A stretch of 64,000 bases of DNA. It comes from Rhizodiscina lignyota. Its lineage: Eukaryota > Ascomycota > Dothideomycetes > Aulographales > Rhizodiscinaceae. Below are positions 12,538-62,645 of the stretch, piece by piece. The position numbers were made by a program, and so were the translations under genes. The notes beneath the pieces were generated by a model. It saw only the letters and a list, made by a program, of their open reading frames with translations, ran no database searches and was not told the DNA's origin. The DNA lies in assembly GCA_010015805.1 (NCBI GenBank), contig ML978126.1:620001-684000 (forward strand), written 5' to 3'. Positions within the stretch are counted from its first letter, which is position 1, and each line of letters begins with the position of its first letter.

Positions 12538-12660
12538 ACGGGGGTGACAAACTGTTCGAATCTCCTGAAGTTTGAATACGTGCAACAGAAACGAGATCTC
12601 CTCTTCAACGGTTGCGAGAGCATCTCTGAAAGCTCGATTAAATCTATACTAAACTGTACT
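12538..12660 (+). repeat. Dispersed short repeat, family A, copy 1
   Basis: Contains GGGGTGACAAACTG, then CTCCTCTTCAACGG, then GAGAGCATCTCTGAAAGC followed by TCGATTAAAT. The same ordered blocks recur at 13199, 46266, 46638, 48500, 59541 and 61325. Non-coding and unclassified. Confidence 0.65.
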
Positions 12661-12741
12661 TATCCAGGATGCGCGGCTTTATGGTGTATGATTGGTACGG
12701 ACTGACGAGGGTAGGCGTCCTCGCGGTTCCGCATATTACAA

Positions 12742-12860
12742 TCACGACTCAACTATTTTATCACCCACTTGCTTGTGTATCTCGGGCTCAACTGTTGTGC
12801 TATTAATCATCATGGCTATGAGCAACTTCAAGGCTTCCCAAGGGGCGTGACTAGGTATAG
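12742..12860 (+). repeat. Degenerate repeat, family B, copy 1
   Basis: Begins CACGACTCAACTATTTTATC with CACCCACTTGC, which matches a block at 46473-46504. It continues through TGTGCTATTAATCATCAT to CCCAAGGGGCGTGAC, which is repeated in the same order at 13078-13180. Confidence 0.6.
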
Positions 12861-13077
12861 AGTATACGAAGGAGCTAGTTTCCCGCGAGCGAACGGTCTC
12901 AGAGCTACTTTACTACAATTGCTTTCAGCACTTCTAAGAAGATTCCGTATAGCATGAGTTTATATTCCAGGTTATTAGGGAGTAGTTTACTAGGCCTGCC
13001 TTAGAAGATTTACTTCTCGTTATCGCGGAAAGGAGACGTCGAATACAGGTCTCATACGCTCACGAGAAACTGGCTCC

Positions 13078-13180
13078 TCCGTACTTGTGCATCTCAGACG
13101 CAGCTTTTGTACTATCAATCATTATACTACGTAGGCGTGAACAATCTCAGGCCCTCCCAAGGGGCGTGACCACGTATACA
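13078..13180 (+). repeat. Degenerate repeat, family B, copy 2
   Basis: Contains TTGTGCATCTCAGACGC, TGTACTATCAATCATTAT and CCCAAGGGGCGTGAC in the same order and spacing as at 12767-12860. It is a diverged direct copy with mostly transition-type differences. Confidence 0.6.
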
Positions 13181-13198
13181 CACCTGCTGCAGCTCGAG

Positions 13199-13330
13199 GG
13201 TGTGACAACATAACTGGCGCCCTGCAAGCTGTAACGCCGAAGAGCTGTTCGCTCTTAGACTCCAAGCACACGAGACTATCCTCTAAAGCTCAGTTATACA
13301 TTCTTCAGAGTATACTAATCAATAGCGCAC
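13199..13330 (+). repeat. Dispersed short repeat, family A, copy 2
   Basis: Contains GGGTGTGACAACATAACTGG, GCAAGCTGTAACGCC, a CTCTTAGACTCCAAGCACACG block and CCTCTAAAGCTCAGTTATA. It is strongly similar to the copy at 59541, which has GGGTGTGACAAAACA and GCAAGCTGTAATGCC. Confidence 0.6.
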
Positions 13331-13629
13331 TGTTGAAAAACTTACACGCTTTATTTATTATTGAGGCTATACTCCATTGCTGTTCAGTATCCTGAAAGCT
13401 GTGGCCAACTTTCATATCACCCTTGAGAGCAGCACCACGATGGGAAGAGCACCCTATAGAGCAGAAAGGCTGCATAGTTGTAGGCCATATAAATTTTTAT
13501 AGGGCTCGGAAACGGAAAAACTCAAAATACTAGCAAATTCCGTTCCTCACTATGCAGTCTTTCTGCTCCATACTCTGCCATCTCCTTCATCAGGGCTTAA
13601 AGATGATAGAATGGTTCACCCTAATAGAG

Positions 13630-13690
13630 ATCGAAAAGATGCATCACAAACGAGTCTTACTCTTCAACCAAGGCAACAGTATCGCCGAGG
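13630..13690 (+). repeat. Dispersed short repeat, family A, partial copy
   Basis: GATGCATCACAAACGAGTC with TTACTCTTCAACCAAGGCAAC parallels GATGCGACGCGAACGAG with TTTTACTCTTCAACACAAG at 61325-61440. Only the central block is recognisable. Confidence 0.5.
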
Positions 13691-13840
13691 GGATAGGACG
13701 ATATACTTCAGGCAGTGTATACGGAGTTTGCACGTGTTTGATAAATATACTTTGTCATTGTTGGTGTGCTTATGCACACTCAATCGTCCACGCCTCCTAC
13801 CTACAGCACCAATTTTGTTTGGGCCAACCTGCCCCCTCGC

Positions 13841-16771
13841 TCACGCCGTCTGGCCATCCCAACCCACCTCCTCCATCAGCTCCTCCTCATCGCCAAGCTC
13901 ACCGCCATTCCCACCCTCCGCCCCCTCCTCACCCCCCTCCGAAAAGTGCGTCTGCGCGGCACCGGCCATGGTGTCCGCCTCTGGCATGTCGACATCCATC
14001 ATGTCGGTGATGGTGTCGCTGAGCTCCGAGAAGTCGAAGGGCTCCTCCTTGACAAGAAGGCGACTCGGCGCCTGCCAAGCAACGTCCTCCTCAGCTCCAG
14101 ACTCGGCGTCGGGTTTCGGTACCGCGATGCCGGCGGCTCCGCCGCTCATGCCGTATGCCAGTGGGTATTCCATCTGGCCTGTCGAGACGACCTCATGTCC
14201 AGCCTTGATGGCAATCTTGCGATCACCTGGTCCATCGGCCGGAGGTTCAAGCGTCGTGCAGTTCATCACGCCGGCTGCTTCCCACAACCTCACATTCACT
14301 GCGCCGTGACCCTCGCTTTTGCTCGCAGTCCGCACAACGCTCATGAACGGGTACAGGGTGCCCAGCCAAATGTCGTCCTGGCTCTTCTCACCAGGCTCCC
14401 AACCTTCTCCCAACTTTTCGCGATCCTCCGTCTTTCCGCATGTCTGTGACGTCAACTCGCATTCGCTGTTGAAGTCCTTCCTCACTCTCATATGCTCCGT
14501 CACCACCATATTCTTCTGCACCTTGGCCATGATTGTGTTCAACATCCAGCCATCATATCTCTTGACGTCCATCATCACGGCGGAACCCAGACTCTCCTCC
14601 ATGTCACTCTCGCCAAAAGTGAAAAGGTAGTGCAGAAGTCTGACGACGTTGTTATCGTAGGCCCAAGGCATCGTGTCGTCCTGGTTGTCGCAGAAGATGC
14701 TCTTAAGGGACGGTGCGTCGTCGCTCCACACGCCATTCCAGAGGTGGGTATACGATATCGGATCGAAAGACGGTTCGGCCATATCACCATCCATAATTTT
14801 GCACCAATCCTCGGCAAGCATGGTCTTTTCCTTGTCCGCGGAGAACGCCAACAAGCGAAGAAGTATCAGCAGTGTCAGTTTCTGGTGTTGCGGGATGGGT
14901 ATGCCATCTTGTATACCAACGACACCTTCCGAGTGGGTGATGGCAGTCTGGGACCGCCAATTCTGCTCTATCACTCCCTGCAATGTAAGCTGCTCAAGCC
15001 CAGCTTGACATAGCATAGTGTGTGCTGCACACGAGGCGCTCTCGCGACACTGCGGACTGCAATACGAAACTTCGCTGCAGTCATGACAGAGCTGGAATCC
15101 TCCTGGCCAAGCCGTGTATGGACGTTGGTCTCCACTAGCCTCCATGCCTGTAGAGTTGCCCGGGATATGGGAAGGGGAAGCAAGAGAAGGCTCGGATATA
15201 GTTCGACCATCAGCGCCGAGGTCTTGCACATCTGGTGAAGTTGCGGATGGTGCTGCTTCATTCTCGCCATATCCAGGCGCACCTTCGCCCGAAGCGCCCG
15301 CTCTACCGGTATCGTCCGAATTCGGCGGTGTGATGGTAGTGGAACTGGCCCGCCTCATCCTCTCATCTTCTCTGATTCTTTCGTCAGCATCTTCGTCGGT
15401 TCTTGGAGGCTGTGCCGCGCGAGTAAGATTTTGCATCCTTTGCATCCTCTCACGCTTTTCAATCGCAAGCATCGCCTCTGTAACGTTTTCCTCTGCCTTC
15501 TCCCAGGTCTTCTTGGATATCTTAAGGGCGGAGGCGCAGTGATCGCAGAAGATGAACTTTTCACCGTTCATGGCCGAGGTGACGTTGAAACAGCCGTGTT
15601 CAGCGAACAAGAGAGATCGGTCCTCAATGTCTGCAAGAGCATGGAGATGGAAGGATGGGGTTCGGCCGTCTCGAAGCTGTGCCTTGAGAATGAAGCCGCG
15701 TGCAGCGTTCTTCACAGCGAGGTTTAGGCATTTCAGCTTTTGCGTGGTCGCCTGGTTAGGTCCTCTTGGCACGTCGGCTGTGGTGAGAGTGTGGTCGTCC
15801 CAAGGATAGACCTCTCTCTTGATGCGAGTGAAGCGGCTGTTCAAGATATCCCAGACCTTGAGACCGCCTTCGGGCGATCCAGTTGCCTTCTCTTGCTTCT
15901 GAGCCTCTCGGATAAAATCCCAGATCTTGGTTTCCAACTTGTCAAACTGTGGCGTGTCACCGTCAGCGCTATTTGCAGCAATGTAGCCACGCGCAGTGCC
16001 GATGATATCTATGGCGCTTCTTATCGCGCCACCGCCGCACTTCCAAAGTGCTAGAGCGAGTCTGTACAACGCCTTCATCATAGCATCTTCCGCAATTGAT
16101 CTGTTCGTCTCGGTCATTTTGAACGATTGAGGCTCATTCTTTCCTGTCAAAGGTAACTCTGGTCCGAAGAGAGGCTTCGAGGGCAATTGAATAATAGTAC
16201 CTGTACCGTCCTTTGTGGCGCGCAATTTCAGTCGTTTCGACAATGTAAGGCTCGCGAGCTCTTGTCCAAGTAAAGTCGACTTGTCAGCTAGCACGCAGGT
16301 CGGCTCCGTCGCCCATTTTTCTCCTCGCTCAGCAGCATCTCTTGAGAGAGTGGCGTAGTAGATCAGCCAGTTGATCAGCTTATGTCCAACGCTTGACATC
16401 GTATCCTCTGCCCACTGTGCGGTGATGTAGGCACGATAAGCATCATTCGCTGCAAGGGAAGGATGTCCGAGCACGAGATAGCAGAGCGACCGGTTGAGAA
16501 AGGCTGCTGTATGTCCTGGTGCTATCTCAAGAACGTAGGTGTAATGCTTGATCGCGCCGTAAACCTCTCGCGCGGCCAGTAGCTCATTTCCTCGTACGAG
16601 GTGTGGCTCTAATTCTGTTACTCCGTAAAGTCGGCGTGTTCTTCGCCTTGGGGGAGGACTGATGGGATACGAACGCGGCTGGCTGGCTGGTTGAGAATAT
16701 TCCTCACGCCGCAAACGAGGTCGAGCTCGAGATGGTGCGGGTGGAGGCTGTTCAGGAGCTGGCTCATCCAT
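13841..16771 (-). CDS. TPR / MYND zinc-finger protein with SET-like halves (SMYD-related)
   Basis: Single exon of 976 residues. The start is the ATG at 16771; the open frame continues about 11 codons further upstream but without an ATG. Residues ~50-130 look like TPR helices (GNELLAAREVYGAIKHYTYV, AAFLNRSLCYLVLG). Residues ~357-395 resemble the SET N-lobe (ARGFILKAQL, LLFAEHGC). The MYND cysteines are split: FCDHC at 409-412, then ~149 disordered acidic residues, then CHDC (562-565), YCSPQC (571-575) and a C-x2-H-x3-C end (581-588). In SMYD proteins a C-lobe with NHSCxPN carries cofactor and substrate contacts. Here the equivalent stretch after LYPFMSVV has no such motif, so methyltransferase activity is doubtful. 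The tail is acidic and ends in a Gly/Glu-rich segment. Confidence 0.8.
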   Translation of the reverse strand: MDEPAPEQPPPAPSRARPRLRREEYSQPASQPRSYPISPPPRRRTRRLYGVTELEPHLVRGNELLAAREVYGAIKHYTYVLEIAPGHTAAFLNRSLCYLVLGHPSLAANDAYRAYITAQWAEDTMSSVGHKLINWLIYYATLSRDAAERGEKWATEPTCVLADKSTLLGQELASLTLSKRLKLRATKDGTGTIIQLPSKPLFGPELPLTGKNEPQSFKMTETNRSIAEDAMMKALYRLALALWKCGGGAIRSAIDIIGTARGYIAANSADGDTPQFDKLETKIWDFIREAQKQEKATGSPEGGLKVWDILNSRFTRIKREVYPWDDHTLTTADVPRGPNQATTQKLKCLNLAVKNAARGFILKAQLRDGRTPSFHLHALADIEDRSLLFAEHGCFNVTSAMNGEKFIFCDHCASALKISKKTWEKAEENVTEAMLAIEKRERMQRMQNLTRAAQPPRTDEDADERIREDERMRRASSTTITPPNSDDTGRAGASGEGAPGYGENEAAPSATSPDVQDLGADGRTISEPSLASPSHIPGNSTGMEASGDQRPYTAWPGGFQLCHDCSEVSYCSPQCRESASCAAHTMLCQAGLEQLTLQGVIEQNWRSQTAITHSEGVVGIQDGIPIPQHQKLTLLILLRLLAFSADKEKTMLAEDWCKIMDGDMAEPSFDPISYTHLWNGVWSDDAPSLKSIFCDNQDDTMPWAYDNNVVRLLHYLFTFGESDMEESLGSAVMMDVKRYDGWMLNTIMAKVQKNMVVTEHMRVRKDFNSECELTSQTCGKTEDREKLGEGWEPGEKSQDDIWLGTLYPFMSVVRTASKSEGHGAVNVRLWEAAGVMNCTTLEPPADGPGDRKIAIKAGHEVVSTGQMEYPLAYGMSGGAAGIAVPKPDAESGAEEDVAWQAPSRLLVKEEPFDFSELSDTITDMMDVDMPEADTMAGAAQTHFSEGGEEGAEGGNGGELGDEEELMEEVGWDGQTA

Positions 16772-18984
16772 TTCGATATCGAACGCAAGCTTGAAAGATT
16801 GCACAGAAAGTTATGGAAGGAGAGAGTGTGTGTGAGGTTGAGAAGATGCAGGAGAAAGAACGAGATCTGATGAAGGCAGAAGTTCATGTTGAGAATAACA
16901 ACACCAGAAGGGCGCTAAGAAAAATTCTCGCGTGTTAAATTAGCGGGTGTTGGAGTGTGTCCAAAACAGGCAGTGACGATTGAGGTTGTTCTTCCCGTTT
17001 GGTGTTATACGCCGCCTCCACTGAAGCCTTTCATACCAAAACAACCACAACCACGACGCAGCTAAGGCAGACCGGCAATCCATCAAACAAACTTCCAAGC
17101 TTTTGTTCTGCGTTTGCTCCTTTGTCTGTTCTTGGATTTCATATATCGTCGCGAAAATGATTCAGGGGCTCCAATGACTGACTGACAGTACTCATGAACA
17201 GCGTGCAAGACGTTCTACTCCATCCAGCACCTGCCTTACCGTTAGGAGAGAAGGGCTTTCCCTTTATTTTCAGAGTCCATTCTCATGATCGCTTTCGTTT
17301 TCTTATTGCGCCGGTGACGAATGATTCCCATAAAGTCTTCTCAATTTCCTCAGGCCTTCGAATATCTCTTCTCCATACGGAACTCCCCATCTCCTGCGAA
17401 CGAACCTGCATCAGCATCGCTCTATCAGTTACGATCGGTGCCTTCCACTTTACACTCTTAGTAGAATGTGGTTGATTGCAATAGAAGGATGTTAAAAGCT
17501 ATCCGGTCTGTGAGACGACAGGAAGACCGTCACAGGAATGCGCTGCGTTGCAAGGGTACTTGTCACCTGCATATCGATCACCGGAAAGCGAAAAGCTTGA
17601 CTGAAACAGACCCCTGCGGGACCCATCTATAGCCTGGGGTAATAAGTAGCATCACGGTCAACCAGACAGTCTGTTCGATGGAAAGAAATCAGAAGACGAG
17701 ACATCTGCACCCCACGAGCACACAAGTCGACGTCGAGGAATGGACGGACGCGTGATTCATTCGGCCCGTCCTCGTCTGATTGGAGCAGCAGATAAGCTAC
17801 AAAGCGGACAGTGCGATGACATAGCGGGCGGCTGGTTTACCAGGCTCCCCGGCGAAACCGTGGACAATGTTTTGGAAACTATCTCGCCGACTTCACGACG
17901 GCTGCGGAGAATGGGGTATCATTGAGGGACTTGGACATGTATATACCACATCTCGGAGGCCTCTATGTGCCGCATAACAGCCTCTAGAAGCGACTGATAG
18001 GCGCAAGTCCGGAAGAGTCACATTCCCTGCGAGCAAAATCTTCTTCAGCATCATGGCAGCGGATCCCCGCGCCATGTCTGCAAGCGGCATAGCTTCCTTT
18101 GCTCACCTGCAGCTCTTCCCTCGCCCGCCGAAGCTCAATCGCTTTTCAACTGAGCTGCTGCCCGCCCACTCGCCTGCACCCAGAAGCAAACCCACCACCA
18201 CTTCCCGCCTTCACAGCTCCTCCAGCCTCCACCACCTCACCTCGAGTGCCCATCGCTCTTTCGACGCGCCAATCCAGCATTGTGAGTGTCCACTCTCTTT
18301 ATTTCACCTCAATCGTGCCGTACGGGCGCCGCTGAGGCTCATGCCGGGCTGTCCCGCGTGCCTCGCGCTGCGTTCGTCGTTGGTGGGACTCGTCCAACCA
18401 GCTCTGCCGCGGTGCTTTGCTTTCTCAGCACCACAACACAGCTCCACGCTCCCCATCGTTGCGACCACGAAAAGCACTCAATTGCACCCTGCAGCACTTT
18501 CAATCCCCTCAATTATCTCATTGGCATCTGTATCGACGTTCTGAGCTTTTCAAAGCCATCGATATCGCTGTTTTGCCAGAGCCCAACACGCGCTAACAGC
18601 CTGAACGCCGCAGCATAAGCCCGCAGAGGTCTTTTCCGTCGAACGCTCGAGCAGTTCAATTTCGGAAGACATCGGACAAGCCTGTCGATTGTTGTGTTTG
18701 CAAGGTACGCACTGTCTCGCAAAGCGGCGTTTCAAGCGCAACAAAATCGCGCATCTTACCACGCCAATTCCATTTTTCTAGCTGCGTTATCCTTGTCGCT
18801 TTCCTCGCACCTCGCTGCTTCATCAACGCTTTACCCGCGTCCACATCAACACATCAAACTTCGTCGCATCCCGGCCTTCGTTTCGCGTCGTCTTCTTCCC
18901 TCAATTGCCTGTACTGACGCGCCTGTCGAGCAGCCCCAATTCCACACATCTCCGAACATCTCCGCTCAACGCACGACGTAAACA
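16772..18984. other. Intergenic region and probable long 5' leader
   Basis: This 2.2 kb stretch lies between the divergent TPR/MYND gene and the 63-residue membrane protein gene. No frame shows protein character. From about 18050 to 18984 the plus strand is strongly C/T-rich and full of short upstream open frames, suggesting a long 5' untranslated region for the gene at 18985, perhaps with an intron beginning at a GTGAGT near 18280. Confidence 0.5.
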
Positions 18985-22621: not shown

Positions 22622-25600
22622 CTACACCACCCTCCTCGATCGCCCCTTCCTCATCGCACCCCAGTCATCACCCTCCACCTCCGCGTCGTACTCCTCATCC
22701 TCCGCCCCGTCGAACCCACCCACGCGCTTGTCGCGCTTGTCGCCAACGCGGCGCAGCAGGCCCATGATGCTCTTCTTCTTCTCCTCCTTCAACTCGCCCT
22801 GTGCGGCAGGAGCGGCCGGTGCCGGTGCCGGCGATGGGGCAGGCGCGATCGATGCCGTGTCACCGACGACAGTGACAGGCCGATATCGGCCTGGGATTCC
22901 GATGTTCGAGCGCTCGGAAGGCGCGAGGGACGGTGCGTAGCCCATAGGAAGGCCAGGAGGACCAGGGACTGCGAGACCTTGGTTTGGGGAGCCGGCGATC
23001 GAGGGGAGCTGCTTGCTGCGGGCCTCTGCTGCGGCGCTCTTGTACTGCTTCTGGGCCATCGGTCTGCCCATGCCGTTGTTCATGCCCATCTGATTCGGCA
23101 TCATGCCCATACCGTTGCCGCCGGCCATCGTGTTCGGGTTCATGTTCATGCCCATCTGGTTCGGGTTCATGTTCATACCCATCTGGTTTGGCATCATGCC
23201 CATACCCATCTGATTCTGCATCATGCCCATGCCCATCTGATTTGGCATCATTCCCATATTCATTTGGGGGTGCATTTGGGGGTGCATTTGGGGGTGCATC
23301 TGGTTGTGCATCATACCCATGCCCATCTGGTTCTGCATCATACCCATGGCCATTGGGTTCTGCTGCATCATTCCCATGCCCATGCCCATTCCTTGCATCT
23401 GTTGCTGTGGCATTCCCATGTAACCCATATTCATCTGCGGGTCGAACATCGGAGGGGCCATGTTGGGCAGAGTCATGGTGCGTCCTTGATGGCTCTGCTT
23501 GCGCCACTTCTTCATTTTGTCCTCCTGCTGCAGCGTATCCAACAGAGTGGGAGCGCCGACTGTGCCGCGAGGAGCCTGACCAACATAACCTCCACCGAAG
23601 TTGCTCTGGTAGGAGACTTGGGGCTGCTGGCCGCCGTATTGCTGTGCGTATGGATTTGGAGCGCCGGGAGCGAGCATGCCACCTTGAGAGGCATACATGA
23701 GCGGCAGATCGTCTGGGAACGGAAGTCGTTGAGCGAATGGCGGCAGTTTCTTCGAGGCACGACTGGTTGGTCTCGAGGCTTGCGATTGGCCGGAATCTGG
23801 CCTATTCTGAGTGCCAGTCGGCATGCCATACACACTTGGAGCGATAGACGCATGGCCACGAGCGAGAGAACCGGCCATGGAGAGGCGACGCATTGATTCA
23901 GGATCCTGGCCGAGCGTCTTCGCTTGCATCAGAACGCCGAGCGGCGTGTCATCGTCTTCATCGCTGCTTGCCTTGAGCTTGCCGCCCGTAAGGCTTGGGG
24001 TGCTCTGGTGAGCAGGCGTCTTGCGGTAGTCGGCAAGGGATGGAGGTTTCATGTCTGGCATGTTATGTGCGTATTGAAGGAGGTGGACGTCCTTCTTCGT
24101 CATGATTTCCGGGCTTGTTGACGCTCGGTTGTTTGGAGGGGGACTGGCTCCTGCTGCAGTGGAAGTTGATGAATCAAAATTGATAGACGAAGCAAATGTG
24201 TCTGAGACATCACGACCAACGGATTTAGCCACAGACTGTCTGTGCACTTGCAACAGGGCTTGCTGACGCTCCCTCTGCTTTCGTATCTTCTTCTGCTCTT
24301 CCTCGTCATCTAGATCATCGTACTCGGTAATGTCCTCGTCCTCGTCCAGAGTCTCGCCGCGGCGGATTCGAATCTTTTCATCGTACTGCTCCTGCTGCTT
24401 TGCAGCTTCGAAGTCCTTCTGCGTCATTTTGCGAGTGCCCATCTGGGGGGAAGATTGCGTGTATGTGAGAGCGGAGGTATTGAAGGATTCAGCGCTGCTA
24501 AGACGAGAATGGCCGAAGCCTTTGTTGGCCGGCGCATCACGTGATGGGAGATCACGCTGAATTACGGTAGAATGAGTAGAGACCTTGCTGGGAGTGTCTG
24601 TTGGCTTAGGGAAGATGATTTCATTCTCGCTCGTAGAACCGAAAGTCTGGCGGCTGGATTCGTTGCGGATAGAGGGGGATTGCTCCATATGAGCTGGAAC
24701 TGGTGGTGGGGATTCGGGCGACGATGGCCCACTTGTAGAGGAGTACATGAGTTGATCCGTAGACTTGCGGTTGAAGAGATCTGGAGATGCAGCTGGTTTT
24801 CCAGCAGAGAGCGATGTATCGACGCGCATGGGGTTTGGCATGTGAGAAACGTCGGATCGAATTCCTCCGATAGGCTTGCGCGTTGTCAATGTAGGTTCAG
24901 TGTCCTAATGTTAAAACTGTCAGTATGGGAGGTGGAGCTGAATCTGTGCCAGCAGACGAAACATACCGCTCTGAGGAAGGCGCGTGCCGGTGGCTGCGTC
25001 AATGGCTGGGGAGTCGCGTTGTTGCTCTTGCGTTCTCCAAGACCGGCAAACATATTGTCAAAATCGCTCTCGAAAGAAGTCTGGCCGACAGGAATCGACG
25101 TCTCAAGCTTTGGTGCAACTGCTGTGCTCGCGTAGCTAGATGTAGTCAAGGCCCGCTCGCGCGACAATTGGCTTCGCTGATGCTGCTTCGTACTGCTGTC
25201 GAGTTCGAGCTTTGGTTCTGGAGAACTGTGAGGCGAACTGCGACTAGCGGCACCATTCATGTTAGTTTGACCTGCGGAAAGATGTTAGCTATTCAGTCTC
25301 ACCAGATGTGTTAAGTGAGATCGGAGCATCTACTTACGCGAATGAGGCAATGTATCGTCAATCTCGAACGATGACGGTACAGTGGATGCACTACTGTACC
25401 TGGGAGAAGAAGACGTTGCAGTGTCGCCACCGACGCGAGTGAAGGCACTGCTGGCATGAGAGCCACTGAAAACTATCAGCGCGTTGTAAACAGTTTATAT
25501 CAACCCAACTTACCGCATTCGAGAATCAGGCTTGTCGTCGAACGAGATCACCGGCCGGCCTTTCTGGGGCAGGACGCGAAAGGAGGATTCTGCGGGCAGT

Positions 25601-38000: not shown

Positions 38001-39909
38001 AATGAAGACCAAAAGTTGCGCTCTCTCGTCAAGGAGTTCTCTTACAACTGGTCGCTCATATCCGCGGAATTGGCAAGTCCTTCCCTATTCACTGCGCAAT
38101 CGGAGCGTCGTACTCCATGGGAATGCTTTGAAAGATGGGTGCAGCTGGAGGGTCTTCCAGCGGAAATGTCAAAGACTCAATATTTCAGGACATACCAAGC
38201 TCGGCTAGAAGCAGCTGCTCGGACTGTTGCTGCGCAACACGCACAACAACAACAGGCGGCCCAGCAGGCGGCAGCACAAACACCAGGTCAAGGAATCCTC
38301 GGCCCGAGAAGGAGGACAACACAACCGTTCAGAGTTGAACGTCGCAAACAAGTGAGGTACCTTGCTATCATCGACGGCATGCGCAAGTTAGCACGGAGGC
38401 GAGAGTCCAACATGCACAAGCAACAAGAAAGTTCGTACTTCCCATTCCCCCAAATAATTCCGCAACGGTCGATTGTTAACTTTCAGAAGACGCTAAAGCG
38501 GCACAAATGCGCAAAGCACAGGAAGTGCCGCAACCAAAGGGTGCTGTGCAAACACCAGCGGAATTCAGTCGCCTCAGATACGAACGAGACGTGAAACTAC
38601 AAGAGAGAGCCGAGCAAGCTCGGGCGCAGTGGATTCAGCAACAGCAAAGGGTACAGAACTCTTCAATACCCGCGCCCAATTCATCACTGACAAACTTGTC
38701 TAGAACGCCGCAATGCAGCGTCAACTCGCTGCAGGTGGTCAACCACAGGCCGCACAAGCCGGAGCAATGCAAGCCAACGCACAGCAGCAACGTAATGGTG
38801 TTCCTAACGGCCAGCAAGGCCAGGCTCAGAGCGCTGCAATGGCTACCGCGCAGAACGGTCAACTCCAACCCAACAACAACATGCAAGCTCGTATGCAAGC
38901 ACAGAATGCGACAATGCAAAACAATGTGCAGAACGGCACTGGCATGGCTACTGCTAACATGCAGATGGCAGGCATGCAAGGAGTGCCTCAAGCGCAGATG
39001 CAAGCTGCGATGATGGGCCAGCAGAGGGTCAGCTCTCCGGAGAATATGCGTATTGCCATGCAGCAACGCCAAATGAATGTTGCTGCTGCTCACGCGCAGG
39101 CTATGCAACTACAGCACTTAAGCCAGCCTGGAAACCTCGCAAGTGCACACCTCGCCGGCAGTACCGGGCTCGGAAACGTTCAAAATGCAGCCATGTATGC
39201 TGCTTTGCAAAAACAGATGGCACAGAATGGAATGAATGGCATGTCATCTGCCTCACCCAGAATGAATCAAATGGGTGGTGGTGGTGGTGGTGGTGGTGGT
39301 GGTGGTGGTGCTCCACAACAATTATCCAGTGGTCACGTTCCTGCCATCAACCAGCTTGCATCCCATATTCAATCGCAGAATCCACAATACAGCCCCGAAA
39401 CTATCAATCGAATGGCTGCTAAACAACTACAAGGCCAGATGGTTCGTCAGAACGCTCTCAACGCCGCCGCCGGTGCCTCAGCGACTGGAATGGGAGGAAA
39501 CATGGGCATGAACATGAACATGAACATGAACATGACAAACATGAACATGGGCATGGGGATGAATGGTAACTTCGCGCAGATGGGTTATGGTCAAAATGGC
39601 AGTCCCAACATGGCTAACATGAACATGATGGCCAGTCAGCCAGGAAGCGTTTCTCCAGTTCAGCATTACAGTCAGGCAGTGAGGATGCAGCAACAGCAGC
39701 AGGGTGGGAGGCAGATGGCTGGAAGCCCAGTGATGGGAATGAGCATGAATATGGGAAGTGGTGGGAGCCGTAGCGCGACTCCTCAACAAGGTCAACAGGG
39801 CCATCAAAGGATTGGAAGTGGCAGTGCCATGGAAGCCAGTCTCAGCCCTGGTGGTCAGGGACGGCCTGGATCGATGAATGGGCCTGGTAGCGCACCAGGC
39901 AGCAGATGA
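35069..39909 (+). CDS. VID21: Vid21/Eaf1, platform subunit of the NuA4 histone acetyltransferase
   Basis: Exons are 35069..35124, 35262..35399, 35504..38430, 38487..38650 and 38704..39909, giving 1496 residues. Eaf1/Vid21 is the scaffold that assembles NuA4 and binds actin-related proteins through its HSA domain. Visible are an N-terminal MSVNLVRDAVLDERKQQ helix, a long disordered Ser/Pro/Glu region, the HSA segment at ~635-700 (DHLLGEMKWMRTDFREERKL), a SANT/Myb domain at ~894-950 (WTWNEDQKLRSLVKEFSYNW, TPWECFERWVQLEG), a basic segment, and a Gln/Met/Gly-rich tail that includes 12 consecutive glycines. Every intron has a CTAAC- or CTGAC-type branch point (TTCTAAC, GCTAAC, GTTAAC, CTGAC) and the frame is continuous. 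The first exon was chosen because it yields the conserved N-terminus. Confidence 0.93.
39274..39309 (+). repeat. (GGT)12 trinucleotide microsatellite in VID21
   Basis: Twelve perfect GGT codons encode Gly 1286-1297. Uninterrupted use of one synonymous codon points to replication slippage, and length variation between strains is expected. Confidence 0.95.
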
Positions 39910-42561: not shown

Positions 42562-43525
42562 AGTAGGGGGCTCTGTGGGTGTGGGAGGGGACTTGTTGCA
42601 CAGTGGTTTGGAGTGGGAGACGAGGCCGTCAGTATAGATACCCAATGAATGCAAAGAACATCGGCCAGGAGTGAATTCGAATACTCATTGCAAGTACAGC
42701 AGGCTCTGAAGAAGGCCTCTCATCTGATTTATGTGCATTCATGCATCGTGCACGGTTGATCGGAAGATACGTTTCATCAATTACTTGTATCCTTTCACGT
42801 GCTGTCGAACGAATCTCACATTAAACCGTTGAAATTAGTGAGCATTCTCGAAAAGGCTTAGAAAGCTTGTGAATTAAAGGATTGAGAGGGCTAAGGGAGG
42901 AGAGGGCTCCCTGACCGATTATATACACTAAAATAAGGAGAAAGGCATCGGAAATTAGGCCTCCGAAGCCCACGGCGACTCCGAGCCGTGCCAGTTGACT
43001 GACTCGTTCAATACGTGCAGTGTCAGGTCAGAAGAATGGACGGTATTATATACCATGTTATTCGCATATCTCGAGAGGCCATGAGGCCTTTAACACCTGT
43101 ATACTCCCTTGCAGAAGAACAGATACCGACCTGGAGTTACAGTTCTTCACTCCAATTACGAAGAGCCAGGTTCTCATGAGCGAATGAGACCTGCAACTGC
43201 GTGTCCTTTCCGGCACACCGAGAAGCAAAGGCAGGCCTAGCAAGCTACTCCATAAAAGCTTTCAATACACATTCAAGAACATATAGAAGCTTCCTGGAAG
43301 TGCTGAAAGGCGACCTAGTAGAGTGGTTCTGTGGACTGTTCACTCGGTGGAAAATAGCTCCTTCGTACCAGGAATAAATCAGTTAACCTGCGCTCAGAGA
43401 TCTTAGAGTCTGCGTGGCGGCTCCATTGCTCTCTTCTTCAACTTCAAACTCTATAGGCAGGTTGTAGAGTTCCCGAAGAATCTTGATTTCCATTGCACCG
43501 AAGCCACTGAGAACCATCTCCTCTA
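42562..43525. other. Intergenic region with A+T-rich patches
   Basis: 964 bp between converging genes. An A+T-richer part (42780-42960) resembles the degenerate repeat strips elsewhere, but I could not align it with confidence. No gene is seen. Confidence 0.5.
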
Positions 43526-46039: not shown

Positions 46040-46265
46040 GATGATGGACAAGGAGATTTGACTGATGGACCATGAACATATGCCTCGCACACTTAAATAG
46101 GGATGTTGAGCACGGAAGAAAGCATCTCAGAGGTGTTCTGAGCTTGTTGATGAATTAGGAGAGAAAGCCAGGAGAGAAAGGCTAGTTATACGCCTGGTGC
46201 GGTAGGGCAGGAGGGGTGGGTACTGTCGGTGCGGCACGGGAGCTAAGTAGTGTAAAACATCTCGA

Positions 46266-46385
46266 GTGTCCCTGGTGTGACAAAATAGTCGAGACAGATG
46301 AACTGAAACGCTTAAGTAAGAATGAGTTTTGTTCTTTAACATGAATGAGAGCATTCCTGAATGCTTAATTGAATATATAATAAGT
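46266..46385 (+). repeat. Dispersed short repeat, family A, copy 3
   Basis: Contains GGTGTGACAAAATAGTCGAG, GAACTGAAACGCTTAAG, GAGTTTTGTTCTTTAACATG and GAGAGCATTCCTGAATGC followed by TTAATTGAATAT. This is the same block order as copies at 46638 and 61325. Confidence 0.7.
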
Positions 46386-46472
46386 AGCACTTATGCGAAA
46401 TACGTAGCTCTGGCGTGTATAATCTGTATTGATTAATGAGGATATGCATCCTCGCTGTTCGACATATCGCAG

Positions 46473-46504
46473 CCACGATTCAACTTTTTTGGTCGCCCAC
46501 TTGC
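46473..46504 (+). repeat. Family B block, copy 3
   Basis: CACGATTCAACTTTTTTGG followed by TCGCCCACTTGC matches CACGACTCAACTATTTTATC followed by ACCCACTTGC at 12742-12772. Confidence 0.55.
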
Positions 46505-46637
46505 ACCCTTCGACAAGGGCTTATTCTCTCGGCATTGTGAGAAAAGGCCTCGGAAAACTGCGCCAGAAGCGTTCATTTTCGGAGACAGATTTGCCAGGAA
46601 CCTACGCTGAGGTGCAGTATCTGCAGTCAGACTTACC

Positions 46638-46750
46638 AAGCTTAATGGTAACAAAATAGTTGAGCCCGATTAGCTGAATGCCTGTAGTAAGGAGTTTTAT
46701 TCTTCCACACAGACGAGGATATCTCTGAAAGCTCAGTTAGAATGGCAGGA
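46638..46750 (+). repeat. Dispersed short repeat, family A, copy 4
   Basis: Contains GGTAACAAAATAGTTGAG, TAGCTGAATGCC, GAGTTTTATTCTTCCACACAG and GAGGATATCTCTGAAAGC followed by TCAGTTAGAATG. It lies about 370 bp downstream of copy 3 in the same orientation. Confidence 0.7.
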
Positions 46751-48202: not shown

Positions 48203-48499
48203 GAATGGCCAGTCAGATTGGATTCATCACCAGGGGGCCATCTGAGCTTTTGGACGCTGTCGCATGCTCGGCTCCGCAAGGACCCCATCGTCGGGTGCGA
48301 GATATTTAGAAGGTGGCATATTATTCTCCTGAAGACTATGGCTGCACCCTGAGGACGCCAAAAGACCATTGAGAGCTTCAATGTTGGATATTGGCCGCTT
48401 CGTCTCTCAAACCCATCCTCGCTCGAGAACATCTAGAGCAAGAGTTGTGCACTCGAAGATGGACAATCATTGAACGCGAGAGCGCTGTAGCACTATGCG

Positions 48500-48690
48500 G
48501 CAAGCTAGTGTTGCTCTTCGACACATACGAGAGCATCTCTGAAAGCTTGATGGAATATGCTTGGACGGCGTCTATCAACATCGCCGAGCAAGGCCGTAGT
48601 GCTTCGCAGCGAGCCGTTGTTGCTCTTCGATGCAGGCGAGCGCATCTCTGAAGGGTCGAGTAGATATACTATAGACAGTATTAACGAAGA
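48500..48690 (+). repeat. Dispersed short repeat, family A, two tandem partial copies
   Basis: GTGTTGCTCTTCGACACATA then GAGAGCATCTCTGAAAGC then TTGATGGAATATGCTTGG is followed ~95 bp later by GTTGTTGCTCTTCGATGCAG, GAGCGCATCTCTGAAGGG and TCGAGTAGATATACTATAGA. The two units are in the same orientation. Confidence 0.75.
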
Positions 48691-48814
48691 ATACCCGACT
48701 CGTTAGAACGATTCAACGCAAGCCAGCATGACTCTACGAGGTCGACGAGAGCGCGTCTCAAAACCCGATTGCATTTGCTTTGGACACTGTCTATCAGGTT
48801 CACCAGGCAGTGCT

Positions 48815-48900
48815 GTAATACTTCGTGGAAATCCGGTGTTGCTCTTCGGGACAAGTGAGAGCATCGCTGAAAGTATGATTTAACATGCTTTGGAGCGTAT
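48815..48900 (+). repeat. Dispersed short repeat, family A, further copy
   Basis: GCTGTAATACTTCGTGG, GTGTTGCTCTTCGGGACAAG, GAGAGCATCGCTGAAAGT and ATGATTTAACATGCTTTGGA repeat the units at 48500-48690. A weaker block (GAGAGCGCGTCTCAAAACCC) lies between at about 48745. Confidence 0.75.
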
Positions 48901-49806
48901 TCGTGTGAGTTACACCGCTGCGACATCCATTGTTTGTCTTAGCGAAAAAGCATATTTGCTTTGGCCTTTCAATACCTCGCACTGCGACGTAACTTTCTGC
49001 GCGCCTCCCGACTGTATGGTCCCGTCGCTGCGTTCCATCGGGTGTCGTCCGATGACGTGTACTTGAAGGCCGGCACGGGCATGTAAAGAACCATGCATTT
49101 GTTGGATGACAGTCGTCAGGATCGTTGCTTCTAGCGTAGTGTACTTGCAGCCAGTAAAACATAACGACGTCTTGTTGTCTTCTTTTGAACGTATCCTGTG
49201 ACCTCTGAAATTGGAGAATTGAAAGCTTCTTGTAAGATACAACAGCAGCGACTTCGGGGAGTGTTATTTATATTCACCATAGAAGCCGGAAATGACTTGG
49301 TCTACTGCTTTTCAATTGCTTAAGCAGATGTCATTCAACTCGTCGGATATGATTTCAACCCAACCACATGCCATGGAGTAGTCACCGTAATCGATCAATC
49401 TCATTATCCGATTTCCTGAAGCCGTTTTGAGGTCTAAGTACATCATTGCTTCTCCTGTGAGTGGATAGAGTACCGATGCAGTACCAAAATTTTCAAGAGA
49501 GGCGTAGCATAGCCACCAGTAGTCCCAGCACTAGAGATTCAACAATGCCATTCAGTAATTAATATCCATTGAATTCAGCACAGGGCTGTGTTAATGTTCA
49601 GAGCGTGGTATTTCGCCTCAGATACTCTCTGTGAGATGCGTTCCAAGGGCCTCTCCGGCCATACCCGCTATTATGTACAATATTCCATCCAATTGACTCC
49701 AAGACCGGTCATAATATCATCTCAGGACTTTGCATATAAGTCCATTACGTGCTGCAGCGTGTAAACAAGCTGCTCAAATCATTGCTTTCCAATTTCCACA
49801 GCCCGA

Positions 49807-57663: not shown

Positions 57664-57997
57664 TGAGAAGAATGAAATTTAATAGGAGACATCCTATTAC
57701 CCTTGTACTGTACATAGGTACATTCAATATTCCACTATTGGAAGAGGAGCCCAGGTATGACCGCCGGGCGGGGAAAACCCATGGCAAGGATTGTCCACTT
57801 CCCAATACGGTGCTGTTGCGACACGGCTATAAGCGAGGATTATATGAAATTAAGCTTCTGACCTTGAAAGATACTACTATATAAGATGAGTGCTGTGCTA
57901 AGATTTGCGGTGAAGACTCGTAGACGGAATCAACTCTTTTCGCGGCGCGATCACCCCCCTTGGTACCCCCGATAACCCAGCCCAAGTTAGAGAGTAA
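57664..57997. other. Short intergenic spacer
   Basis: 334 bp between the scytalone-dehydratase-like gene and the questin-oxidase-like gene, both on the plus strand. It is presumably the promoter of the latter. No other feature is seen. Confidence 0.55.
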
Positions 57998-59519
57998 ATG
58001 GCAAATATGGCGACAAACACAAGAATAGTGATAGCAGCTACAAAGGACAAGGGTAACGTACACGCGCAAAATGTACTGCAGGTGACCGCGGACAAGGTGT
58101 CTGAGCTGTTGATGAAGAACCACGAGCAATTCCACACCTATTTCTTTGCCAGCGCGCTGCATAGTATGTACCATGCTACCTAGCAATTCATGAAATGGGG
58201 ATGTAATTGACAGAAATCAGATCATATCGTGCATCATCTACTAGCTCTGTACGCCCTTGGAGCAACTCCTGATGAAGTCCAAAAGGGCTACGATGTCAAC
58301 AGCACATATCAAACCCCGGCTATCGTACGTAGCGCTCAAGTATCTCAAAAGCTGAACGACCCCGAGCAATTCAAGAACCGCATGGGACAGGGAGAGTTCT
58401 ATGACGACTTCATGAAGTTCTTCAGCGAAGAGTTAGCTGCAAATGGAGTCCAAGACACAGTAAATAAGTTCATTTTCAGAGGGGACGACCTGGCCGATGA
58501 TATGCTTGCGCGCCTCTTTGGTGGTAAAGTAGAAGACTCCTCATTGAACGTAACACATCCCTGATAAGAACATCACAGGCTTCCTGCACCCCATAATCCA
58601 CCTTGGATACGCTCTTGAGTTTGACCAACCGGTCTTGGTCGCGGAAGCGCTTGCCTCGACTGCAGTCCACGACTCCTGGCCCTCAGTCGTCTTTCTTCCA
58701 GCCGAAAAGTTGGCTCATCAGAGAGAACGACAGCCGGGTATCACACTCGTTTCTCTTCTGGGCAGGCTACGAGAAGACCCAGTCGTTTCAACAGCGGTTC
58801 GATCGGACGACCCGCCAAACAAAGTTACGGGCGGACTCCTCCCTCGTGCCGGCGACAGATTGGCAGAGTATCTCTCAGCATTCACCGTTGCGCCAGACGA
58901 GCTGCAGCGAAAGACGGCAGAGATGATCAACGCTGCCATCTACACGGCAGCCTGCGCTCAACGCCCTGGCAAGATGGAGATGTTCGACTTCTTCCTCATG
59001 CATTCTGTCAACACCTCCATATTCGTTCCAGTTATCAACCAGCAAGAATGGATTTCGGCTGCGAATAAATGTCGACTGCTAGAGCGGAAAGCGCGCCTCG
59101 ATCTGGCACTCTATGCAGCGTGTCGCACGCCCAAGCTATATCCTGAACGGGTTTTCCAGTATCAGGCAAAGACACCAGGAGACTGGGAAAGCATCTTTCG
59201 AAGGGCTACGAGCTACCAGGATGATGGACACACCTCGAAGCTCATCCGCGCATTGAAGAACGGTGAGGAAGTCACACGGCCATACGCGGGGGCACCAGGC
59301 TTCCAAATACCGCCAGAAGCATTCCTGACTATTGCTCATATGGTCATGGATTCAGTCGAGCGCATGGATGAGCCAGATTACAAGTTTCCAAAGGCCCTGT
59401 CATATTTCAGGGATATGAACGAGCAAGTCATTCGAGTGACCCTTCGTTGGATACGATGGTGTGGACTGGATGAGGCATGGGATGATGTGCCAGCTTTGCC
59501 AGGAAATGCGATGCTTTGA
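57998..59519 (+). CDS. Questin oxidase-family (DUF4243) oxidoreductase
   Basis: Exons are 57998..58163, 58221..58523 and 58579..59519, giving 469 residues. Joining exon 1 to exon 2 at the second AG (58220) recreates the family's conserved HNHIVHHLLALYALGA, and exon 2 continues with YQTPAIV. Exon 3 opens FLHPIIHLGYALEFDQPVLV with the characteristic HPIIHLG motif and later shows FFLMHSVNTSIFVP. Questin oxidases (GedK and relatives) perform Baeyer-Villiger-type ring cleavage of anthraquinones such as questin in geodin-type pathways. Introns are 57 and 55 nt with TTGAC and CTGAT branch points. No polyketide synthase lies in the window, so the substrate is unknown. The gene appears intact, unlike its neighbour. 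Confidence 0.9.
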
Positions 59520-59540
59520 GTAGTGCTTCCAATGGCGCGG

Positions 59541-59660
59541 GTGTGACAAAACATTTGGCAGCCGGGCAAGCTGTAATGCCTAAGGGCGAGCAGCTCTTGC
59601 TCTTCAAGGTAATCGTCACTATGTCTGAAATTTTAGTTCAACGTTTTTCGGAATGTATTG
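59541..59660 (+). repeat. Dispersed short repeat, family A, copy
   Basis: Contains GGGTGTGACAAAACATTTGG, GCAAGCTGTAATGCCTAAGG, GCTCTTGCTCTTCAAGG and TATGTCTGAAATTTTAGTTC followed by GAATGTATTGAATATCAG. It starts about 20 bp after the questin-oxidase stop codon, in its likely 3' untranslated region. Confidence 0.65.
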
Positions 59661-59824
59661 AATATCAGTGTACCTTTGAAAGACTCGTAATTTGTATTAA
59701 TTGTGGACGCTATACGTCGTAGCTGTTCGATGGCTTTAAAGCCGCGGCCGATTTTTCGGTTGCCCTCCACTGCGGTTGGGATCAGAGTCGATTCTTCATG
59801 TCGAATTGTGAAGCTTTCAGCATA

Positions 59825-61219
59825 TCAACCAAACGCTCTCCTTTTCGTCAGTTCTTGATACACGTCTTCTAGTACTTGTCTCTTCCTCTTCCGTTCGTCT
59901 TCCCTTTCTCGTTGTTCTTCATTCTCCCATTCTTCGAACATTGCATCTTCTGACGTTCTTGGCTTCCACGCTCGAATCATGCCGTCTCCATGGGCAGAGT
60001 ACAGCTCAATCTCATGTGCGCGCCATGCTAGCGCCATCGTGCGGTTCTTCACAACTCGACCGGTTTTCGCTGGCGCGTCGTTTGGCATGTCTTGTCCAGT
60101 TCGCGGCGTTCTCAGCCGCTTCATCAACCGCCCTTCAAACACTTCGTACATAAGGACCTCTTTCTCGCTCGGAAAGAACAACACATCCTTGCCAGGTGCC
60201 GTCGTAGACATTGGTGCCATGAGCGGAAGGAGCGTCGATAAGCCGGAGTTCTTAATGATCGGCCCAAAATTCGCAAGCGTATTTGCGCCTCGTATGACAT
60301 CCCATACACGAATCTTTTCATCGTGTCCAACTGTCACAACATGTCTCCCGTCTTCAGTCCAGACCACGCCATTAACGGGGCCATTGTGAGCCTTTCCGCG
60401 CTGACGACCACGAGCACCTCTTCCATGTCCATCATAGCCGAGTATGCCCACCGAGTCCTCCTTGTCTAAGACCCCAAGTGAGCTGTTGCTCTTTCGAACA
60501 TCCCAGAATCGCGCCGTGCCATCTGTACCTGCACTGCAGAGTACATGCTCTTCTACGGGGCTCCAAGCGACACTGAGAACTGCACCATTATGGCCTGCGA
60601 GGGAATGTGTGCTGGAGCCGGAACGCAGGTCTACCAGGCGTACAGAGGGATGTTGGATGGCGCATGCAACAAGGAGATGTGAGGCAATCGGGGAGAGGGC
60701 ATGCGAGTAGACGATTGCATCAAGTGAGAATGATGCTGATGGTTGCAGCGTCTCTGATGACCATATCTTCACGGTATGGTCGTATGAGCTGCTGAGGAAG
60801 GCCAGCGAGTCGAAGGGGTAGAAGGAAAGGTGGGTTACGCCATACGTGTGGTTCGCTTCGGACTTTGGTATCGTTCCTAATGGCCTGTGTGATGGGGGTG
60901 AAGTTTCTGCTGGCTGTTCGAGGTCCCAAATCGCGATGGTTGCATCTGCGCCGCCAGATAGAAGGCTGGTCGTTGTTAGCTTGATCCAGAAAGGATCTTT
61001 GCATGGCACGTACTATTTGCCCTCGAATTTATCAATGACTATTGTGTTTGTGCCTCCATTATGGGCAACTTCGTCTTTACTGTCGTCAAGAGTCGTTACC
61101 AACCTATCGAACTTGATTTGGGTGGGTTGAATCGCGTGAAGTAGACGCGCATGTTCGTTGTTTTGCAATTCTCGAGGGCTCAGTGAGCCCAAAGAGCGGT
61201 TGAGCAGAGAGGTATTCAT
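59825..61219 (-). CDS. CSA/ERCC8 (Rad28)-like WD40 repair protein
   Basis: On the minus strand the exons are 61219..61014 and 60965..59825, giving 448 residues. The 48-nt intron has a CAAGCTAAC branch point. CSA is the substrate receptor of a DDB1-CUL4 ubiquitin ligase in transcription-coupled nucleotide excision repair. The N-terminus (MNTSLLNRSLGSLSPRELQN, then HNGGTNTIVIDKFEGKY) parallels the human ERCC8 HGGGINTLDIEPVEGRY. Repeats follow: LLSGGADATIAIWDLE, VTHLSFYPFDSLAFLSSSYD, VYSHALSPIASHLLVACA, VRLVDLRSGSSTHSLAGHNG, SAGTDGTARFWDVRK (a DWD-type DDB1-binding motif) and DEKIRVWDVIRGANTLANFG. The C-terminal tail is Glu/Arg/Lys-rich. Divergent from the gene at 61685 across 465 bp. Confidence 0.88.
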
Positions 61220-61684
61220 CCATCTGGTGCTTTCTCAGAAGGTTGGTAGTTGAGTAGACTTAAACGCAGACCCCTCTCCATGACTCGATGTGAAGTCGCG
61301 ACGTTAAGAACCACTCACTTAGTGGGGGGTGACAAAATAGCAGTCCCTGATGGAGGTTGACAAGATGCGACGCGAACGAGTTTTACTCTTCAACACAAGT
61401 GAACGCATGCATGAAAGTTGAATTTCAATATTGTTTTGTTAACATTTATTGAAATTTCGCCACTTTAATAAAGATGGGTTAATTCCTGGAAACGATTGCA
61501 CAGGTTAAGAATTCGACATTGCAGTTATCGTACGGTGCAACTTTTTTGTCTCATCACTAGTCGTATTGTTAAGGAGCCGCCGAATCTAAACTTAACTTTC
61601 ACGCGCTTCCCCGTGACTTTGCATATCCCTTTCAATACACGAACGTCATGCTTTCGTTCTGATTTACCTCTCAATCTGACCACC
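61220..61684. promoter_or_regulatory. Divergent promoter region containing a family A repeat
   Basis: 465 bp between the CSA-like gene and the 246-residue nuclear protein gene. A family A repeat occupies 61325-61440, so the repeat has become part of a promoter or leader region here. Confidence 0.45.
61325..61440 (+). repeat. Dispersed short repeat, family A, long copy
   Basis: Contains GGGGGTGACAAAATAGCAG, GATGCGACGCGAACGAG, GTTTTACTCTTCAACACAAG, GTGAACGCATGCATGAAAG and TTGAATTTCAATATTG. It is one of the best-preserved copies and shares block order with 46266 and 13630. Confidence 0.7.
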
Positions 61685-62475
61685 ATGGAGACGGATGAGC
61701 CAGCAAAGAAAAGACCTCGCCGAGAAGTAACAGTGTACGATGCTGTTGCCGGTATGCCATTCTCGAATACCGCAAAACAGATGCTAATCATTCATGTACA
61801 GGAAGAGCATCAACTCGTGGTTTTCTTCCTAGCGAAATCTACACGTCTTCAACTAGAGACACGGCGACAGTATCAAATGCGCCAATACGACCAGAGGAAG
61901 TTCTGTTTAAACGAAAGCACGCTCCCGCAAGGTACGAGGAAGACGACATCTACTTTCAAGAGCGCCATCTGCCTCCAAATGTGAAATTGCCCGACTCGGA
62001 TCTTATGAAAGCGATTCACACATATGCTTCTGATTTCTACGGAAGTGAGGCCGTACTCAGGGGTAAGACTCGGGCGAAGAGCAAGGATTGGGAAAGCATG
62101 GACGAGACTGCTCTGATGGCAATGGGCATCTTGCTTGAAGAGGCAGCGGCAGAAGCGCTCGGCGACTCCGGTTATCTCGCGTTTCTTGAAGAGGATGGCA
62201 CGAAAGAAGATGATGCACCGCTAGTATGGAACGGTAGACGCTGGGTGAAGAGTGTGATTCGTAGTAGACGTGAGCATCGTGGCATTGGGGTCGAACCTGA
62301 TGGTAGCGAAGATGATGAGCTTCGGGCACAGGATGATGGTGGGGAGATGGAAGACGAAGCGACATCTTCAGATCAAGAAGAGACAGGGGCAGAACAAAAG
62401 GGAGACAAGAAACGTAGAGCCCTCCCAATCCTTCGGGCAAAAGCTGGAGGTATGTGGACAGCAATCAATGATTGA
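61685..62475 (+). CDS. Probable nuclear protein, possibly Rrn9-like (246 residues)
   Basis: Exons are 61685..61751 and 61802..62475 across a 50-nt intron (GTATGC, branch TGCTAATC, TGTACAG). The N-terminus METDEPAKKRPRREVTVYDA contains a nuclear-localisation-like cluster. The core reads YEEDDIYFQERHLPPNVKLP, DSDLMKAIHTYASDFYG and MDETALMAMGILLEEAAAEA. The P-x-S/D-L-L-K-A-I-H-x-Y-x-S-x-F-Y pattern reminds me of the fungal Rrn9 domain of RNA polymerase I upstream activation factors, but I hold that loosely. The C-terminal third is acidic (Glu/Asp) and ends in a Lys/Arg segment. A GTATGT lies 28 nt before the stop, so a further 3' exon is possible. Confidence 0.7.
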
Positions 62476-62544
62476 AGGAGGGAACCATCAGTCCACTGCT
62501 CTTGATGCGTGTTCTCTTCAGTTAATGCAGGCGGCGTGCGTTGG

Positions 62545-62645
62545 AGCCGTGGATTTTCAACAAATACTCTCCGAAGCATATTGAACCATGCTATTAAAGA
62601 TGTTCTCGATTGTGTTGAAGAGCAGTGCTCGGTCACACGTTAAGG
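62545..62645 (-). repeat. Dispersed short repeat, family A, inverted copy
   Basis: Reading the minus strand: CACTGCTCTTCAACACAATC, GAGAACATCTTTAATAGC, ATGGTTCAATATGCTTCGG. This matches the plus-strand unit at 48500 (TGTTGCTCTTCGACACATA, GAGAGCATCTCTGAAAGC, TTGATGGAATATGCTTGG). It is the only clear copy in inverted orientation. Confidence 0.7.

Follow-up and report, generated by a model that had tools for sequence, protein, structure and literature searches.

Degenerate miniature inverted-repeat transposable elements (MITEs) were reportedly described from Epichloe by Fleetwood et al. 2011. According to a study of Epichloe, these elements occupy the gene-rich part of the genome, and the question of which elements mobilise them is left open there (PMC6218096). 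Work on Mycosphaerella graminicola (Zymoseptoria tritici), like our species an ascomycete, distinguishes 13 MITE families, two of them with 5-6-bp duplications, and finds the MITEs to be more prevalent in gene-rich DNA (PMC4522978). For C. heterostrophus, seven Tc1-Mariner MITEs are described, a different kind from the family treated below (PMC4112212). Here we report on short dispersed repeats of Rhizodiscina lignyota, recognised in a 64-kb stretch of its genome (contig C6, positions 620001-684000, hereafter the window; the genome comprises 33.4 Mb in 29 contigs). These scattered repeats are very probably the decayed copies of a non-autonomous cut-and-paste MITE, about 234 bp long with inverted repeats that measure about 26 bp, moved in trans. 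Text searches of the literature for the terminal-repeat string on both strands returned no relevant paper, and a search joining MITE, ascomycete and 5 bp TSD (target-site duplication) found nothing; the MITE is likely novel at the family level. Its kind is familiar, and it is notable mainly as an old, many-branched family without a recognised parent, which adds a well-delimited and deeply branched member to the little-explored fungal MITEs with 5-6-bp duplications.

An initial annotation of the window had listed eleven diverged copies of a dispersed family, united by ordered sequence blocks, and both the copies and the dispersal have been borne out. A pattern derived from the blocks and allowing up to three mismatches gave 41 matches in the genome and none in the reversed form that served as control here and in the two counts that follow; the flanks of these 41 matches revealed the true boundaries of the element, which is about 234 bp long and bears an inverted repeat at either end. 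Patterns for the terminal repeat and for the core of the element gave 264 matches (control 1) and 146 matches (control 0), respectively, those listed being dispersed over many contigs. A profile was trained on 61 full-length copies, all from outside the window and originally found by patterns derived from the annotated blocks. It recovers all eleven places in the window with E values from 7.6e-52 to 1.1e-9, as against a best value of 0.007, and hence no match below 0.001, in 30 dinucleotide-shuffled windows. Comparison of the window with itself points to genuine homology among the listed places, aligning for example 12534-12772 to 46267-46504 (67% over 241 columns) and 13195-13412 to 59536-59755 (66% over 221 columns). 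The shared blocks are present as well, although the strings originally quoted for them are mostly inexact: GTTTTACTCTTCAACACAAG has one match within three mismatches in the window, an exact one at 61380, and TTGAATATGCTTTGGA has three with two mismatches each (0.64 expected), while GAGAGCATCTCTGAAAGC is clear with six matches (0.1 expected) and GTGACAAAATAG is weak alone, its nine matches within two mismatches comparing with 4.3 expected and being reached in 2 of 100 shuffles.

The consensus of about 234 bp is common to 40 aligned copies, and a length of 233-235 bp is found in 50 of 65 full-length copies, a set of sequence-distinct profile matches that span the model nearly end to end, taken with 12 bp of flank and with truncated copies excluded. 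Extraction had yielded 38 usable elements out of 40 (one composite and one double-counted start were omitted); the alignment comprises 34 of these 38 and six others, the short or gapped L058, L032, L063:472-680 and L054 being left out, and reads CACGnGGGTGACAAAATAGTTGAGTCC ... GCAGCCACGACTCAACTATTTTGTCACCCACTTG. The terminal inverted repeats extend over about 26 bp and begin CACGnGGGTGACAAAATAGTTGAG; they run CACGnGGGTGACAAAATAGTTGAGTC and CAAGTGGGTGACAAAATAGTTGAGTC, with two outer differences (CACG[ACG]GGG at one end, CAAGTGGG at the other), and the end pattern of the family can be written as CA[CA]GNGGGTGACAAAATAGTTGAG and its inverse. In a single-stranded DNA fold of one copy the two termini are paired with each other (z -4.3). 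The consensus is well inside the limit of about 600 bp that applies to MITEs, is too short for a transposase and has no recognisable coding sequence.

The terminal bases are kept as CA at the start of 53 of the 65 copies and as TG at the end of 45, with both present in 38. This bears on the notion that the unit is the long terminal repeat (LTR) of a retrotransposon, surviving as solo LTRs or as a terminal-repeat retrotransposon in miniature. LTR elements usually leave a 5-bp duplication, and the unit length would be plausible for an LTR; the kept ends, however, read 5'-CA...TG-3' and not TG...CA, LTRs are not known for long inverted repeats such as the ones of about 26 bp seen here, and we give this explanation next to no chance. 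The initial annotation had left the choice between a MITE- and a SINE-like element, a SINE (short interspersed element) being a small retroposon that relies on RNA polymerase III for its transcription and spreads via an RNA intermediate. Units that are short, gene-free, dispersed, close to genes and divided into subfamilies would suit such an origin, and one group has GGTTCGACAT near its 3' end, which by eye is weakly B-box-like when set against the B-box consensus. Yet the copies terminate in inverted repeats, most duplications have a constant length of 5 bp and fall in a preferred target, and none of the 40 aligned copies has an A-rich or simple-repeat 3' tail. No tRNA- or 5S-like head came to light: no tRNA gene was found in the window (bacterial settings), and the window gave no Rfam match at the gathering score; the RNA consensus fold of the 40 copies is weak (-1.71 kcal/mol, 10 pairs, four of them with some two-sided change). 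A SINE is accordingly an exceedingly improbable source of the repeats, and the MITE half of the earlier proposal is the one that stands, with inverted repeats, 5-bp duplications, a target preference and one empty site in its favour.

Exact 5-bp target duplications flank 22 of the 65 full-length copies, where 0.63 would be expected; five further copies have exact 6-bp duplications, and in nine more, four of the five duplicated bases match (1.7 expected). The flanks were taken at profile-defined ends, hence independently of the duplication itself, and the expectation of 0.63 comes from shuffled pairing of flanks. An exact 8-bp duplication occurs in none of the 65. The 22 copies with exact 5-bp duplications share a roughly palindromic target preference, TA-SNWNS-TA, in which A occupies left -2 and right +3 in 14 copies each (p 2e-5 for either position), T occupies left -3 in 12 (p 0.0035) and right +2 in 13 (p 0.0009), and 11 copies have G at left -1 (p 0.008). 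The outer part of the preference recurs in the 38 copies that have no exact duplication: T occupies left -3 in 20 of them (p 3e-4), while A occupies right +3 in 16 (p 0.003) and left -2 in 15 (p 0.0085). Finally, the copy at L062:446-680 is inserted inside an element of another MITE-like family (B); when the flanks of this copy are joined, they align over the junction to four elements of family B that lack the insertion (L065, window 12864-13030, window 43208-43367 and L114). The duplicated bases at this empty site are CCGCG and CCACT, three of five alike, and are accompanied by a small further indel. In this comparison the L030 row repeats the DNA of window 12864, and the rows other than L062:446-680, which align the flanks of a copy to its own locus or to identical DNA, are left out of the count. 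Full-length ends, terminal inverted repeats and target-site duplications, each of which the initial annotation had advised looking for, are thus all at hand.

A coherent mechanism can be proposed for these features. A transposase encoded elsewhere, presumably a cut-and-paste enzyme of the DDE/D type, would have bound the inverted repeats in trans and excised the element, which would then have been pasted at a 5-bp staggered cut in the roughly palindromic target TA-SNWNS-TA, giving rise to the 5-bp duplications. The parent element may since have been lost or have decayed, and the MITE family would presently be inactive; the shortness of its copies would have protected them, in their places between genes, from heavy repeat-induced point mutation (RIP).

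Several observations weigh against the interpretation as a MITE mobilised in trans. More than half of the full-length copies (38/65) lack an exact 5- or 6-bp duplication, which we attribute to age; the mirror base C at right +1 is unsupported (8/22, p 0.28), and T at right +2 is weak in the copies without exact duplication (14/38, p 0.083). Among the retrieved stretches searched, only one of 65 joined-flank queries gave an empty site. No autonomous partner was found, and it is for this reason that mobilisation in trans is something we infer. An inner core, GAGAGCATCTCTGAAAGCTCGATT (model 79-102), may moreover be more strongly conserved than simple drift would allow in a gutless MITE, on evidence that is mixed. 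Among the 31 copies selected on their ends, the conservation of the core is 0.80 as against 0.67 expected from base type (permutation p 0.06 to 0.11), and of all bins the core ranks highest (0.72) among 10 diverged copies picked by hand; in 10 copies selected without regard to core or ends it scores 0.68, below the end bins at 0.71-0.72. Taken together, the core conservation is suggestive only.

Such a core is what one would look for if the repeats were conserved non-coding functional elements, regulatory modules or small RNA genes, that had been multiplied by segmental duplication, and pieces without ends do occur, among them the array at 48481-48996 in the window. The core statistic is nevertheless no more than suggestive and falls below that of the ends in the unselected set, no strong conserved RNA structure is present, and the empty site, the duplications and the target preference mark insertion events; we consider this origin very unlikely. 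Speculatively, and with rather low probability, the MITE could be the orphan offshoot, in an ascomycete, of a cut-and-paste transposon with CA...TG ends and 5-bp duplications, either Transib-like or an unnamed CMCT relative, and its copies could have long diversified around a core of about 24 bp conserved nearly to the degree of the ends. If true, the core conservation would imply that the element needs an internal site, bound by the transposase or by a host factor, besides its inverted repeats.

MITEs usually, though not necessarily, have their ends in common with an autonomous parent. The search for a parent, likewise advised in the initial annotation, yielded none among the end matches followed. 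Of the 264 matches to the end pattern, 100 are listed and could be placed, and the search would miss RIP-mutated ends and end matches beyond these 100. Among the matches listed, 31 stretches around ends without a close partner were inspected, and 29 of them carry a MITE body; six more end matches, in stretches of 7.4-9.9 kb, all lead into MITE bodies, and the remaining partnerless ones lie in loci already retrieved. The other two of the 31 are L100 (C2:2593890-2594370), where about 67 nt of the MITE 5' end are followed by AT-rich, RIP-like DNA with no partner in 8.0 kb, and L112, whose end match has no partner in 4.0 kb. The parent has so been lost, has decayed beyond recognition, or resides in a place or family outside the search.

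The hAT transposase domain PF05699 has four matches in the genome (L068-L071, at C2:577526, C2:595247, C18:70679 and C28:747), each a relic with 3-4 in-frame stops, and none of the four has a match to the MITE profile in its retrieved flanks, which span about 1.5 kb and are shorter at L071; further hAT genes may exist. At L068 a 14-base match to the MITE end, with three mismatches, was judged to be at chance level. The relics lie in AT-rich DNA (GC 0.36-0.45, TpA/ApT 1.09-1.52), a composition that suggests RIP in this fungus. The MULE domain PF10551 has no match in the genome, while 3 of 14 control genomes are positive for it. RAG1 (PF12940), Transposase_21 (PF02992) and Plavaka (PF18759) have no match either, which shows little, as the 14 control genomes are equally silent.

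With respect to superfamily, the CMCT clade (EnSpm/CACTA, Mirage, Chapaev, Transib, Plavaka and others) is characterised by mostly CA...TG termini and 2-5-bp duplications, and 5-bp duplications are given for hAT5 transposons (PMC12730594). The 234-bp MITE, with its CA...TG ends and 5-bp duplications, resembles the former, a weak likeness in that the criterion is shared with other groups, and membership of the clade in a Transib-like position is a tentative possibility, somewhat doubtful on terminal features. Transib duplications are 5 bp long and GC-rich. The first seven bases of the MITE, CACGnGG, do not appear to match the Transib heptamer. hAT5 shares the 5-bp duplication, and the MITE ends, with a CA start and then an A-rich stretch, we take to resemble hAT ends; the four hAT relics differ in lacking any profile match to the MITE in their retrieved flanks, and an assignment to hAT5, which the CA...TG ends and 5-bp duplications would fit, appears unlikely. 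Classical hAT elements, with their 8-bp duplications, are unlike the MITE, none of the 65 copies being exact at that length. MULE duplications measure 8-11 bp, and the same absence of exact 8-bp duplications, together with the lack of a PF10551 match in the genome, speaks against this group. The end sequence, the duplication length and the target preference are now usable for seeking the transposase in other fungi.

The family is old, because identities to the nearest neighbour among the 65 copies run from 96.2% down to 58% with a median of 87%. In the Epichloe study, by comparison, there are signs of recent movement among the MITEs (PMC6218096), whereas here the closest pair and the median neighbour stand at those 96.2% and 87%; to judge from these identities, the family probably had a long period of activity, but none in recent times. 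Strict searches miss most copies because the copies lie between genes and are highly diverged: within the window the tuned profile finds 11, and at up to three mismatches the end pattern finds three and the core pattern two. A total of about 800 to 1,000 copies in the genome is a crude guess, obtained by scaling up the genome-wide pattern counts with these ratios from one window that was picked for having copies. Two large groups can be seen by eye in the 40-copy alignment, one with ends CACG[AG]GGG and CTCTTCAACGCTAGCGAG, the other with mostly CACGCGGG and TTCTTCAGCACRWGCGAG-like cores; average-linkage clustering at 70% identity does not split them, placing 56 of the 65 copies in one cluster. 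A third, more diverged group carries GCAAGCTGTAAYGCC, a pattern with eight matches in the genome and none in the control, one of them in the window copy at 59536.

Short length has been proposed, in the Epichloe study, to spare MITEs from RIP (PMC6218096), and by analogy it probably spared the copies of the 234-bp MITE. Relative to the consensus, C-to-T rates in 56 copies are 0.173 at CA, 0.162 at CG, 0.084 at CT and 0.058 at CC, and A-to-G changes occur at 0.092. RIP inside the MITEs is not claimed on these figures, the CpA excess being mild and confounded by subfamily differences.

Within the window, the best-preserved copy (12537-12771, plus strand, 235 bp; E 1.5e-51, model 1-234) is full-length with both terminal inverted repeats, is one and the same as L030:1437-1671 and is flanked by the target-site duplication CTTGT on the left (12532-12536) and on the right (12772-12776). 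The copy at 46270-46503 (plus) is near full length, its 5' terminal bases eroded and its 3' end intact (match 46275-46503, E 7.6e-52), with no exact target duplication left in its flanks; it sits upstream of a minus-strand DUF6604 open reading frame (ORF). Two nearly full-length plus-strand copies with worn ends belong to the most diverged subfamily (block GCTGTAAYGCC), at 13194-13425 (match 13198-13422, E 5.6e-13, with subfamily alignment) and at 59536-59770 (match 59538-59767, E 3.4e-10). The former has a possible 5-bp duplication, GCAGC, if its right end is shifted post hoc by three bases, and the latter lies between a questin-oxidase-like ORF that ends at 59519 and a minus-strand WD40 ORF at 59825-61012. 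A fifth copy, at 61324-61557 (plus; match 61325-61550, E 2.9e-17), is nearly full-length with degenerate terminal inverted repeats. The remainder are pieces: a partial, strongly diverged copy at 13603-13781 (plus, E 1.1e-9, model 8-185), a 3'-truncated copy at 46647-46739 (plus, E 7e-20, model 7-103) and an inverted internal fragment at 62504-62636 (minus, E 1.4e-14, model 50-182).

The array at 48481-48996 (plus) is derived from the MITE by tandem amplification and, as profile matches and unit alignment indicate, consists of four internal-core units of 109-110 bp, the last of which extends to model position 219. Its profile matches are 48502-48588 (E 4.2e-13), 48618-48699 (3e-12) and 48830-48996 (2.9e-15); a twelfth unit for the window, at 48696-48803, is weak (E 0.02), yet in register within the four. 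The array is also seen as the direct-repeat families D2 and D5. Tandem Repeats Finder reports no array at 48300-49200, presumably because the units are too diverged. Some units are open over short stretches, and a protein-coding origin was considered for them and dropped, the longest open stretch in six frames across 48441-49060 being 86 aa. The suggestion that the window holds internally deleted relics is thus only partly apt, since five copies are near full length and the others are end-eroded or tandemly amplified pieces.

As to their surroundings, the copies were said to lie outside coding sequence, and indeed none of nine regions tested overlaps any of the 17 retained ATG-initiated ORFs of at least 200 aa. 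The piece at 13603-13781 overlaps the plus-strand stop-to-stop frames 13503-14309 and 13745-14449, which are both antisense to a 976-aa ORF at 13841-16771 and look spurious. The further statement that every copy lies within about 1.3 kb of a gene could not be confirmed, since about 2.4 kb separate the array at 48481-48996 from the closest long ORF (small exons may have been missed).

Family B, which hosts the copy at the empty site, is a second MITE-like family of about 226 bp, apparently unrelated, whose inverted repeats by eye begin TACGRAGGAGCYAGTTT. It has window copies at 12862-13087 (plus), 43153-43367 (minus) and 2-89 (minus), and its pattern gives 60 matches in the genome and none in the control; BLAST against its own reverse complement finds no match for the inverted repeats, and a profile finds one at 2e-4. 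An internal tandem array of family B, with units of about 110 bp, occurs at L065:2929-3584, and the 109-bp array of the 234-bp MITE at 48481-48996 parallels it, two families expanding by units of roughly half an element. The family B copy at 12862-13087 is flanked by diverged direct repeats of about 90 bp (window 12772-12859 and 13084-13178, 72%) that share CCCAAGGGGCGTGAC and may represent either a third dispersed family or the duplication of a host site. Elsewhere in the window, short tandem repeats occur in two ORFs, at 23077-23368 with a 27-bp spacing and at 39499-39562, and by eye both appear to code for Met/Asn/Gln/Gly-rich stretches.

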